DNA from: a virus
Direction: 5' to 3' (one strand)
DNA length: 21,243 nucleotides
Virus record (IMG/VR): IMGVR_UViG_3300032053_000630
Coordinates: 1 to 21,243 of that record
Part shown: positions 7,365 through 20,715 of the stretch, piece after piece
Layout: the number at the start of each line of letters is the position of its first letter
How positions within the stretch are numbered: position 1 is the stretch's first letter
Translations under genes and position numbers: made by a program
The notes under the pieces: model-generated
Told to the model about the DNA's origin: nothing
The model's input: only the letters and a program-made list of their open reading frames with translations
Databases searched by the model: none

Positions 7365-7958
7365 TCAACCCTTCCACGGTCCAACCTTTGCCGCACCACC
7401 CGCACTTTGAACCACAACCTGATTTACGAGTCGGAGGATTCGCTCGTAGAACTGGTTCGTGAGTTTGATCATGTCCAAGACTTTGCGAGGGTCACGATCG
7501 ATCATCTTCGAGGTTCCACCAACCACGAACTCTGCATGTGGTGACAACGCTTTGAGAAACCCGATCCTGAACCTCATCTGTGTTCCACCCGTTGGATCGA
7601 CGCCCACGACGAGTGAGTCCTTCATCATCGCAATACCCACTCTTGCTGCCTCTTTGGGTTGAATGTGTACGCGAGGCAACTCGAACGCAATTGGTCGAAC
7701 TGTCGCTTCCATTGCACCCCTGAAGTGGGCTGCTTTACGAACACGTGGATTGCGTGCGTACCAATCTGCAATCGACTGTGGTCGGTCTTTGTGTTCGTCG
7801 TCAAGGAAGTACTCCTTCGCAACTTCCTCCTTCAACCTCTTCGCTTCCGCCAACATAACGGGTCGAAGTTGCGTCCGAAGTTGTGGAGTGATCGTTTGGA
7901 ACACCTTTACGACGAGATCGACTCCAAAGACTTGTATCGTTCCACTTCCTGCTGCCAC
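7365..7958 (-). CDS. Neck / tail completion protein (HK97 gp10-like)
   Basis: A 197-residue protein starting at GTG 7958 with GGAGG four bases upstream. The start lies inside the end of the glycosyltransferase gene, a 52-base overlap. Residues 1-60 (FGVDLVVKVFQTITPQLRTQ, then an acidic/basic helix) followed by a DRPQSIADWYARNPRVRKAAHF segment fit minor structural proteins that sit between the connector and the tail terminator. The middle carries PTGGTQMRFRIGFLKALSPHAEFVVGG, similar to the HK97 gp10 group, where a terminal 'HA..VE.G' block is common. Medium confidence in family, high confidence that it is a gene. Confidence 0.7.
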   Translation of the reverse strand: MAAGSGTIQVFGVDLVVKVFQTITPQLRTQLRPVMLAEAKRLKEEVAKEYFLDDEHKDRPQSIADWYARNPRVRKAAHFRGAMEATVRPIAFELPRVHIQPKEAARVGIAMMKDSLVVGVDPTGGTQMRFRIGFLKALSPHAEFVVGGTSKMIDRDPRKVLDMIKLTNQFYERILRLVNQVVVQSAGGAAKVGPWKG

Positions 7959-10426
7959 TGTTCCTCCGACATTGCTGCTTTGCCAACGATCGTCATAGGT
8001 GGCACAATCGGGTTCAAACGCTGAATCACGTCACCCAAATATCCAGACAAGTGATGGGTTGGAGGAAGGAGTTGCTGCAACGTTACACCGTGTGCCAATG
8101 CCATACGGAGGTGGTGTGCCATGAGTTCCTTCAGTGCATTGGGGTTGTTCGGTGAACGTTCCAGACACGTCTCCAACATCTTCACACCCTCGTCCACTCT
8201 ACCATCGTTCAAGTAGTGGAGACCGAGGTTGAAGTAGGCACGACCATCATTCGGGTGTTCCTCGATCTCCTCCTTATTCAGACGTTCGTAGTAGTTCAAC
8301 TTCTGTTGCACTTCGTAGTGTCCCTTCTGATACCCGAAGTGTGCGATCTTGAAAGGACACGTCAGTGCTCTTGCACCCATCATTTGCATCGCATCGTCAA
8401 GCGTCTCGTGAACCTTTCCCGTGTAGAAGAGTTGCGGGATGTTCTTGAACAACCGAACGGTGTTGCTCAAGGTGAAGTTTCCATCCACGTGATAGTTGTG
8501 GATCTCGAACTGCCAACACGGGATAGGCATCTCACACAACCGAATGAGCATGTTCGCGAAGTTCGGTTGGGGTCGTTCGTCTGCATCCAACTGCAGTATC
8601 CAGTCACCGTCACACGCATTCTTGGCAGCATTTCGCATGTACGCATAGTCGTCTTGCCAGGGTTCACGCACGACCTTGACGTCAAACGGGTAGTATTGGA
8701 GGCAATCCAAAGTTCCATCCTTACAACCCGTGTCCACGATCACGTGTTGATGTACCACACCGTACGTAATCGTCATCAACTCGGGAAACCAGTCCTTCTC
8801 GTTTCCGACAAGTGTCACCTGTGAGATCTTCTGGTTCACTTCCCACTTGCGAAGTCTCAACTCCAACTCGTCGGTGATGTAGAAGTAACTGGGAGCCTTC
8901 AAAATGTCGGGACGGAAGTCAGTGTCATGCTTCAAGTACCAACGCAACTTCTTCACGCGATCATCGTCCGTCAGATACCCGAAGTGCTTGATCCGGACAC
9001 TCGTCTGGAAACAAGACGTTGCTGGAACGTGAGGAAGGCGACCACAATGCATTCCCAACTTGTTTCCAGCCATCTTTCCGTACGTCATGTTCGGAACTAC
9101 ACGAGCCATTGCAGTCAGAACGTGGTTGCCCCATCTCCCGTCCTCACGCCAGTACTCGGGGTTGTTCCACATGTTGTAGATGTGAACGTTGTAACCCTGA
9201 ACATTGGGGTCTGGATTTCGCATCAACTTCTCAGCGTAGTGTCGATCGAACTGTTCCTCAAGGATCTCGTCACCATCCAAAACCAGAACCCACGTCACAC
9301 CTTCGATCTCTGCACACACGTTCCACAGTGACTGTCGATCTCTCCGCTCATCGAACGTCGCGAACTTCGACTCAACGACCTTGAGTTTCGGTTCATCCAA
9401 CGCGAACTTCTTCAACCATCGTCTGAACGAGAGATCGGAGTTGTCGTCAAACACAACCACATGGTCTGCAACTTCGAGTGACTTGCGAAGACTCTGTTCG
9501 AAGATTGACTGATCGGGATCCTTGACCCTGTAACCAATCGCCAACTTGTGAGTCTCGTCAAGAGTCTTGTGCCGCCAGATGTCGGTGAACAACCACCGAT
9601 TGCTGAGTCCCAAATTGACGCCAGGAGACAAAGCATTCAGCGTCCGACTTCCGTAGTGATGAACGTACACGTCGGTTGCAATCAAACTCCTGTACCCCGC
9701 ATACCTTGCACGGAGGCAGAAGTCGTTGTCGTCGAAACCTCCAGGAGACAACCGCTCCTCAAGTCCACCCAACACGTCAACGACCTCTTTCTTCACGACC
9801 ATCATGAAACCCGAACATGCACCCACAGAAATCCGTTGTCCACCATGTTGCTGAGACCACGTTTCCGCAAACGTGTCGAGCGTGTTTGTGTTGCGCTGAA
9901 CGTGAGACACACTCGGAATGTTGTCGAGTGAGTACTGAGGTTGTCCGGATGTATCAACCATCTGTGACGGCCAAGCCCAGTTGGTCATTGGTCCTGCAAT
10001 CGCGAATCCCTTCATGTTGGTCTGGGTTTCTGCACCATCAAGTGCACCAGTCAATCCCTTCAACCAACCCTTCGTCACCAGAACGTCGTTGTTGCAAAAC
10101 ACGACGTACTTGACGTGCGGATTCACAGCCAACAGACCACAGTTGATAGCAACGGGATAACCCCTCCGATCCGGAAGAGTAACCACTTTCACGTTGGAAC
10201 GCATCTCAGCAAGTTGACGGAGATAACCAGGTGTTCCATCCATTGAACCGTCATCCACGAACACGTACTCGACGTCCTCCGTGAATCTTTCCAGCCTTTC
10301 GAAACAACGTGCAGTGTACGCAAGTTGCCCACACACAGGGATGATGATGCTCGCAAACGGTGCGTTCATCTGCACCGAAAGGACCTCGTCGTCCTTCGTC
10401 ACGACCTCTTGGGTCTCTGGAGTCAC
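7907..10426 (-). CDS. Three-domain glycosyltransferase with TPR-like tail inside the structural operon
   Basis: An 839-residue protein with three GT-A-like units in a row. Domain 1 (about 24-260) is a classic family 2 transferase: ASIIIPVCGQ, VFVDDGSMDGT, a DXD-like NND at 112-114 and FDDNDF at 231-236. Domain 2 (about 293-480) has VVVFDDNSD and LVLDGDEI (384-387). Domain 3 (about 535-700) has HVIVDTGCKDGT, QDDYAYMRNAAKN and LQLDADER (614-617). Residues 726-764 read as one or two TPR repeats (NDGRAYFNLGLHYLNDGRVD). There is no membrane segment or signal peptide, so it should act in the cytoplasm. GTG 10426 is preceded by AGGAG that spans the upstream stop. It likely transfers sugars from nucleotide donors; the acceptor is unknown. 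Its place among connector genes suggests virion protein glycosylation, but DNA base or host glycan modification is not excluded. Confidence 0.9.
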   Translation of the reverse strand: MTPETQEVVTKDDEVLSVQMNAPFASIIIPVCGQLAYTARCFERLERFTEDVEYVFVDDGSMDGTPGYLRQLAEMRSNVKVVTLPDRRGYPVAINCGLLAVNPHVKYVVFCNNDVLVTKGWLKGLTGALDGAETQTNMKGFAIAGPMTNWAWPSQMVDTSGQPQYSLDNIPSVSHVQRNTNTLDTFAETWSQQHGGQRISVGACSGFMMVVKKEVVDVLGGLEERLSPGGFDDNDFCLRARYAGYRSLIATDVYVHHYGSRTLNALSPGVNLGLSNRWLFTDIWRHKTLDETHKLAIGYRVKDPDQSIFEQSLRKSLEVADHVVVFDDNSDLSFRRWLKKFALDEPKLKVVESKFATFDERRDRQSLWNVCAEIEGVTWVLVLDGDEILEEQFDRHYAEKLMRNPDPNVQGYNVHIYNMWNNPEYWREDGRWGNHVLTAMARVVPNMTYGKMAGNKLGMHCGRLPHVPATSCFQTSVRIKHFGYLTDDDRVKKLRWYLKHDTDFRPDILKAPSYFYITDELELRLRKWEVNQKISQVTLVGNEKDWFPELMTITYGVVHQHVIVDTGCKDGTLDCLQYYPFDVKVVREPWQDDYAYMRNAAKNACDGDWILQLDADERPQPNFANMLIRLCEMPIPCWQFEIHNYHVDGNFTLSNTVRLFKNIPQLFYTGKVHETLDDAMQMMGARALTCPFKIAHFGYQKGHYEVQQKLNYYERLNKEEIEEHPNDGRAYFNLGLHYLNDGRVDEGVKMLETCLERSPNNPNALKELMAHHLRMALAHGVTLQQLLPPTHHLSGYLGDVIQRLNPIVPPMTIVGKAAMSEEQWQQEVERYKSLESISS

Positions 10427-18526: not shown

Positions 18527-18556
18527 GAACGCAGTCGCGGAACATGACGCGGCCCG

Positions 18557-18585
18557 TGCTATAGGGGAAGGGGTGCCCTATAGCA
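18557..18585. repeat. 10-bp inverted repeat upstream of the cassette's first gene
   Basis: TGCTATAGGG (18557-18566) and CCCTATAGCA (18576-18585) are perfect partners around a nine-base centre. It lies between the candidate promoter and the start codon at 18617, so it could be an operator or a 5' RNA hairpin. The half-site resembles the initiation end of T7-type promoters (CTATAGGG), but the upstream bases do not fit. Confidence 0.8.
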
Positions 18586-18616
18586 TAGCAGACCATACCC
18601 CGTACGGAGTCGGCTC

Positions 18617-18892
18617 ATGCGCTCAGAAGGTCGTATCGTCTTGTCGTCCGACGCACTCGCGCCAGTGCTTGAGGGTGCGAGTAAAGAGCGTGGCGTTGCA
18701 ATGACGCTCGTTGTTTTCCCCTTGTCCGGTGTCATGCGCGTCGCAGACATGACCGGAACAAGCGCGGGATTCACCACTGACGCGCACGCTTCCGGCTTGG
18801 CAGTCGCCGCTACTGTCAAGGCGCGACGGCGCGAATCGGACGGAGCGGAGGCTATGCTCCCTTCGCTGTCGTCCGTCACTGTCAACGAGTAA
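18617..18892 (+). CDS. Unknown 91-residue protein of the hammerhead cassette
   Basis: ATG 18617 has GGAG seven bases upstream. The product begins MRSEGRIVLSSDALAPVLEG and contains RGVAMTLVVFPLSGVMRVAD and ASGLAVAATVKARRRESDG. It looks like a small alpha/beta protein with a basic patch (KARRR), no membrane span and no signal peptide. The stop TAA is directly followed by the ribozyme. Codon use is GC-rich with many GCG and CGC, unlike the genes on either side. No family is recognised. Long frames on the opposite strand are shadows of this GC-rich coding. Confidence 0.7.
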   Translation: MRSEGRIVLSSDALAPVLEGASKERGVAMTLVVFPLSGVMRVADMTGTSAGFTTDAHASGLAVAATVKARRRESDGAEAMLPSLSSVTVNE

Positions 18893-18961
18893 GGCGAAAC
18901 GCGGCCCGATACGGGCCGCGTCCGTGCAGCCTGGTCCCTGCACGCTGACGAGTCCAGACCA
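18893..18961 (+). ncRNA. Type II hammerhead ribozyme
   Basis: All core parts occur in order. GGC (18893-18895, stem II strand), GAAA (18896-18899), stem III of nine perfect pairs CGCGGCCCG/CGGGCCGCG (18900-18908, 18912-18920) with loop ATA, then U18921 (pairing with A18899) and C18922, the cleavage nucleotide in a GUC triplet. Stem I has seven perfect pairs CGTGCAG/CTGCACG (18923-18929, 18938-18944). Then CTGACGA (18945-18951) fits the invariant CUGANGA, and GTC (18952-18954) closes stem II with three pairs, one a G-U. In addition TGGTC in loop I (18932-18936) can pair with GACCA (18957-18961), a likely tertiary pseudoknot. Stem II being the open helix makes it type II, the form known from bacteria and phages. 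Cleavage would fall between 18922 and 18923, separating the two cassette genes. Confidence 0.85.
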
Positions 18962-18979
18962 CGAAAGGAAGTGATACAT

Positions 18980-19537
18980 ATGCCAGAAATAAGCGCCTTG
19001 CGCTCCCGGTGGACAGGCCGCGCATGGCGTACCCTGCAAGCGCGCGAATCTAGCACCGGATGGCGTATCGCAATCGGGTTTGCTGATGGGTTAGTCGCGC
19101 AAGCCGATAGCACCTTGTATCGGGACACGGATGCGCTCGATGCTTTACTTCGCCTAGTACGCCGGGACAGACCGCGCCATAGTGCGCCGGTCACTATCAG
19201 CGAAGCAGTCCCTTTGCTCGCGCCGTTACTAGGGTGGCATTGGGCGTTGGGTGCGGTGGAGTATCGGCGCGCAGACCCTGATGCCATGCGGTCTGTGGTC
19301 CGTGTCGAGGCGGAACGCGCACGCAATCGGGCCGACGCTATCGCGCTTCGCTCGGAGGCGGTCCGGCTCGGCCTGTGTGAGCCTGTGATAGCCTCTGAGT
19401 CTGTGGACACGCGGGAGCCGGTGCTTGAGGCTAGGCTGCGACGCGCGGAACGCAAGCGGGCAGCGGCAGAGGCAGAGGCTAGGCGTTGGCAAGCGGAGAG
19501 TATCAGGCTACGCAAGGCAATCCTAGCGAAAGGCTAG
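18980..19537 (+). CDS. Unknown 185-residue basic coiled-coil protein of the hammerhead cassette
   Basis: ATG 18980 follows the strong block AAAGGAAGTGATACAT; an in-frame GTG at 18971 lies inside that block and is less likely. The N-terminal part is basic and aromatic (LRSRWTGRAWRTLQARESST), then ADGLVAQADSTLYRDTDALDALLRLVRRDR and ISEAVPLLAPLLGWHWALG. The last 35 residues form a charged helix (LRRAERKRAAAEAEARRWQA) likely to be a coiled coil that multimerises or contacts nucleic acid. Its mRNA would start at 18923 after ribozyme cleavage. Not recognised; a DNA- or RNA-binding function is only a guess from charge. Confidence 0.7.
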   Translation: MPEISALRSRWTGRAWRTLQARESSTGWRIAIGFADGLVAQADSTLYRDTDALDALLRLVRRDRPRHSAPVTISEAVPLLAPLLGWHWALGAVEYRRADPDAMRSVVRVEAERARNRADAIALRSEAVRLGLCEPVIASESVDTREPVLEARLRRAERKRAAAEAEARRWQAESIRLRKAILAKG

Positions 19538-19543
19538 AACCTA

Positions 19544-19591
19544 CCATGCCAAGCGGCCCGGACCTTACAAGGTCCGGGCCGCTTGGCATGG
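19544..19591. repeat. Perfect 23-bp inverted repeat closing the cassette
   Basis: CCATGCCAAGCGGCCCGGAC plus CTT on the left matches its exact reverse complement on the right, with only AC in the centre. It begins seven bases after the stop at 19537. As RNA it would form a very stable hairpin that could stop transcription or protect a 3' end, although no U-run follows on either strand. As DNA it could extrude a cruciform or be a recombination or insertion scar. Confidence 0.9.
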
Positions 19592-19605
19592 CAGCAAAAT
19601 GAAAC

Positions 19606-20500: not shown

Positions 20501-20598
20501 CCACTGCATCTGACGGTTTGCCACTGCATCTGACGGTTTGCCACTGCATCTGACGGTTTGCCACTGCATCTGACGGTTTGCCACTGCATCTGACGGTT
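20501..20598. repeat. Five tandem 20-bp iterons
   Basis: The unit CCACTGCATCTGACGGTTTG starts at 20501, 20521, 20541 and 20561 with no mismatch, and a fifth copy at 20581 lacks the last two bases. The 20-base period is about two turns of DNA, so a bound protein would sit on one face, as at iteron origins and partition sites. There are no spacers, so it is not a CRISPR array. Confidence 0.9.
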
Positions 20599-20715
20599 AG
20601 TAACGAGCAGGAATCCCTGAATTGCACATGTAGCACCATGCCTCATTTCGTGGCCCCACGCGATATCTACTGCTGTTCCTGTCTCTAACTCAAGACAACG
20701 AAAGGAGGTGATACA

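Follow-up and report, generated by a model that had tools for sequence, protein, structure and literature searches.

The window, a 21,243-base virus record from IMG/VR analysed over its whole length, carries an intact type II hammerhead ribozyme between two small open reading frames (ORFs), and is a further example of a known ribozyme class. We consider it very likely that the ribozyme is functional and acts as intercistronic punctuation within one transcription unit of an uncultured phage. This reading is favoured because the conserved core is complete, no shuffled window matches the motif as well, and the motif lies on the same strand as both ORFs, between the stop codon of one and the Shine-Dalgarno sequence and start codon of the other, as is usual for the family.

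The first-pass annotation had recognized a type II hammerhead at this place from the letters alone and had suggested a covariance search. In that search, the Rfam model Hammerhead_II (RF02276) matches positions 18892-18963 of the plus strand over its full length (model positions 1-66), with 44.5 bits against a gathering threshold of 37 and an E-value of 2.6e-6 when all families are searched. When the model is searched alone, the E-value is 5.9e-10 and none of 14 control genomes matches. Position 1 of the model is the last A of the TAA stop codon of the upstream ORF, while the motif as read by eye begins one base later. The remaining Rfam matches, to miRNA and lncRNA families, fall far below their cut-offs and were set aside as chance; two of them lie on a hairpin at 19541-19594 (see below).

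All the elements claimed for the hammerhead are present. From 5′ to 3′, the sequence and the motif descriptor give the 5′ strand of stem II, GGC (18893-18895), followed by the core segment GAAA (18896-18899) and the stem III hairpin (18900-18920), an inverted repeat of 9 bp (18900-18908 with 18912-18920) around the loop ATA that is closed by the pair A18899-U18921. Next come the GUC cleavage triplet (18920-18922), the 7-bp stem I hairpin (18923-18944; 18923-18929 with 18938-18944), seen in both the sequence and the fold, with loop I CCTGGTCC (18930-18937), the core segment CUGACGA (CTGACGA in the DNA; 18945-18951) and the 3′ strand of stem II, GUC (18952-18954), which forms 3 bp with GGC including one G-U pair. 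Stems I and III are thus closed by loops and stem II (GGC/GUC) is open, which is the topology of type II, and the conserved core is complete: GAAA, UH at the cut (18921-18922) and CUGANGA. The predicted cut between 18922 and 18923, as first placed by eye, agrees with the hammerhead consensus. The pairing that had been noticed between loop I and the tail also holds, since the strand GACCA (18957-18961) makes five Watson-Crick pairs with TGGTC (18932-18936). The fold of 18880-18922, the stem III region, has a z-score of -3.59. Two points speak against function: stem II is short, and when the RNA is folded thermodynamically on its own, with a model that does not include pseudoknots, the open stem II does not appear.

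A descriptor search of the whole window found exactly one motif, so that the record does not hold an array of several ribozymes per unit. Among 300 dinucleotide-shuffled windows there was one loose match, and none had equally long stems; the concern raised at first, that the motif might score no better than shuffled sequence, is thereby answered. The G-U pair within stem II could be taken as the mark of a degenerate, inactive relic, or the match as chance. We regard this as very improbable given the full core, the failure of all 300 shuffles to do as well, and a score of 44.5 bits that compares with 38-53 bits for the motifs of isolated Streptomyces phages.

The upstream ORF (18617-18892, plus strand; 91 aa) starts with ATG preceded by GGAG and ends with TAA at 18890-18892, and the first base of the motif, 18893, follows this stop directly, as the first-pass annotation had it. 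Beyond the ribozyme, a Shine-Dalgarno-like AGGAAG (18965-18970) lies 9 nt before the ATG at 18980 of the downstream ORF (18980-19537, plus strand; 185 aa); an alternative, longer GTG start at 18971 sits directly on this Shine-Dalgarno sequence. The stop codon, the ribozyme, the Shine-Dalgarno sequence and the start codon are therefore all on the same strand as the two ORFs. Searches of IMG/VR, GTDB genomes, GenBank phages, PHROGs and Pfam returned no relatives of either ORF, and a search of plasmids returned none for the 185-aa ORF. With mean pLDDT values of 57.7 and 48.2, the structure models of the two ORFs are of too low quality to be searched for similar folds; the low-confidence model of the 185-aa product is helical at its C-terminus.

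The two ORFs belong to a plus-strand cassette (18550-19600) with the order leader hairpin, 91-aa ORF, ribozyme, AGGAAG, 185-aa ORF and 26-bp hairpin. Its GC content is 62-65%, against about 49-56% in the flanks, and it looks acquired. The leader hairpin (18557-18585) has 10-bp arms, TGCTATAGGG and CCCTATAGCA, lies about 30 nt ahead of the upstream start and folds weakly (z-score of -1.79). The region before the 91-aa ORF showed no good sigma-70 promoter, which counts against the punctuation reading. The 3′ hairpin (19541-19594, plus strand) begins 3 nt past the downstream stop and is near-perfect, with 26-nt arms that are 96% complementary, a folding energy of -51.4 kcal/mol and a z-score of -10.4. 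It has no T run and is absent from the list of terminator-like structures, and it probably forms the structure in which the second mRNA ends.

The minus strand of the record encodes a major capsid protein, a prohead protease, a head-tail adaptor and a cell wall hydrolase. Relatives of the phage were sought through its major capsid protein, and none were found outside the profile families of that protein. Amid the head and tail genes, an 839-aa ORF (7907-10426, minus strand) was by eye a putative glycosyltransferase. Elsewhere, positions 20501-20600 hold five head-to-tail copies of the 20-nt unit CCACTGCATCTGACGGTTTG.

The strand of the structural genes also contains a 318-aa open frame (18559-19515, minus strand) that spans the whole cassette. 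Were this the real gene, the motif would be antisense to it and there would be no sense transcription. The predicted product is, however, a low-complexity sequence of Ser, Arg and Ala from a TTG start. Moreover, its GC content peaks at codon position 2, unlike that of the other phage genes, whereas the sense ORFs resemble those genes in having their lowest GC content at this position. Antisense open frames are also frequent in such GC-rich loci. The frame is best read as an artefact, and we find it extremely improbable that it is the gene here. In our first gene calling across viral contigs, 118 listed motifs likewise appeared inside antisense genes; we attributed these placements to spurious open frames on the antisense strand and redid the placement statistics from stop codons alone.

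These statistics come from two pattern scans of IMG/VR, both of which fixed GGCGAAAC and so give a non-random sample, with at least 303 non-redundant motifs. Among the matches listed, 106 of 168 locus-strands have a single motif and the others have arrays that reach nine, and no locus has motifs on both strands. For 285 listed motifs with enough upstream sequence, we recorded the first stop base of ORFs of at least 60 aa relative to GAAA. In 159 of these 285 (56%), the stop of such a long ORF falls between -14 and -5, compared with 2.7% at displaced control positions. The most frequent single position is -6 (50 of the listed motifs), where the stop abuts GGC, which is also the arrangement in this window; no long ORF has the first base of its stop at -4 to 0 among these 285. 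Where no stop sits at -6 (220 of the listed motifs), GGC is still preceded by A in 142 cases, and among the matches listed this A often faces another A with which it cannot pair. Because A is preferred there even without a stop, the ribozyme probably makes use of the final A of a TAA or TGA codon as well.

On the downstream side, a Shine-Dalgarno sequence and a start codon lie within 57 nt of 60% of the listed motifs versus 18% of random positions. The start is most often 21-31 nt past stem II among the matches listed; here the distance is 25 nt. Given the enrichment of stops and of Shine-Dalgarno sequences with starts around the listed motifs, the layout of stop, ribozyme, Shine-Dalgarno sequence and start is typical. 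The pairing of loop I with the tail is common but not universal in RF02276: at least four Watson-Crick pairs are possible in 39% of the 303 listed motifs versus 13% with swapped tails. In the curated gene set of Streptomyces phage Janus, ten motifs lie between same-strand genes and none inside a coding sequence (CDS). The stop is at -4 or -5 in two of the ten and 8-20 nt away in six others, which brings eight within 20 nt; exact abutment of the stop is thus common but not required. In Streptomyces phage TrvxScott, some motifs lie inside or overlap annotated CDSs, perhaps owing to wrong start calls. At 1483-1953, 2879 and 8014 of the TrvxScott locus, the annotated starts lie upstream of or within hammerheads, which suggests that the true starts of these genes are further downstream.

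From the adjoining stop, the first-pass annotation had suggested a link between cleavage and translation of the 91-aa gene. In such a scheme, a ribosome terminating at TAA would cover GGC-GAAA and block the fold, so that cutting would report on, or regulate, translation of the first gene. The stop does adjoin stem II here, more than half of the listed motifs have a stop within about the downstream reach of a ribosome from GAAA, and stops of long ORFs starting at -4 to 0 are absent from the matches listed. The same pattern is, however, predicted by compact genomes and a ribozyme barred from translated sequence. Ordinary same-strand gaps in the sampled loci, used as a control, are themselves short, with 29% overlapping and 52% at most 20 nt. 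Furthermore, the distribution breaks off sharply where coding sequence ends and there is no fixed footprint distance, the stop distances in Janus are varied, and hammerheads are able to cut between ribosomes. Nothing specific speaks for coupling at this locus, where a nearby stop is what phages usually have, and we judge such gating unlikely. The closeness of stop and motif is instead attributed to compact genomes, to a ribozyme that is kept out of translated regions and to its preference for A where the stop ends. In many of the listed loci, GAAA would be within reach of a terminating ribosome, so interference must at least be tolerated.

One further feature of the leader bears on folding. 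The segment GACGCGGCCCGT (18546-18557) is a perfect 12-nt complement of 18911-18922, i.e. the 3′ strand of stem III and the GUC triplet; none of 400 shuffles reaches 12 nt, for a match that was noticed post hoc. From its sequence, this segment could compete with stem III. An anti-ribozyme switch in the leader was rejected, since the match is post hoc and such complementarity is no trait of the family, the mean complement being 7.7 versus 7.3 among the matches listed. A broader proposal holds that phage type II hammerheads abut stops since terminating ribosomes time their folding and cutting by translation of the upstream gene, and that the leader here may add a second switch through its complementarity to the cut strand. 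We consider it decidedly unlikely.

Returning to punctuation, what is observed is the motif, its position and its statistical match to a family found between phage genes; the cutting, the RNA ends and the effect on expression are what we infer. Once transcribed, the RNA would fold stems III and I first and then stem II, whose 3 bp would be stabilized by the pseudoknot with loop I. Self-cleavage after GUC at 18922 would split the shared message. The message for the 91-aa protein would then end just past its stop with the stem III hairpin and a 2′,3′-cyclic phosphate, while that for the 185-aa protein would start with a 5′-OH and the 7-bp stem I hairpin directly before its Shine-Dalgarno sequence, an end expected by analogy with known hammerhead chemistry. 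Each message would presumably have hairpins at both ends after the cut. The likely benefit would be separate fates, in stability and translation, for two messages from one promoter.

For this window alone, the ribozyme is well supported but ordinary. Across hundreds of phage loci, however, the measured order of stop, ribozyme, Shine-Dalgarno sequence and start makes the punctuation model concrete, and the model could be examined in cultured phages, for example Streptomyces phage Janus. Type II hammerheads and their pseudoknot between loop I and the 3′ tail were described by Perreault et al. 2011 (PMC3088659), who also proposed that arrays in (pro)phages may divide long transcripts into mRNAs the size of single genes; they observed cleavage of tandem arrays in vitro, and in E. 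coli in the case of A. tumefaciens (PMC3088659). The term ‘stop codon’ is not mentioned in the text of that paper, and in the open-licence literature we found no other treatment of the spacing between stops and ribozymes.

The present motif resembles RF02276 as described (PMC3088659) in its open stem II, closed stems I and III, GAAA/UH/CUGANGA core, pseudoknot and neighbourhood of phage genes. Unlike that description, it is a single copy in a 21-kb fragment, has flanking genes without relatives and stands directly after a stop. Like the arrays of Janus and TrvxScott, it lies between same-strand small genes, with a stop close upstream and a start downstream as in Janus, where the start is mostly 23-39 nt away. 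Those phages, however, have about ten copies per region as opposed to one here, and the genes on either side of the present motif have no detected relation to theirs. Finally, theta (HDV-like) ribozymes of gut phages (PMC10879173) are likewise self-cleaving phage ribozymes with a fixed place beside a gene, but they have another fold and are neighbours of tRNAs, in whose maturation a role has been proposed for them.
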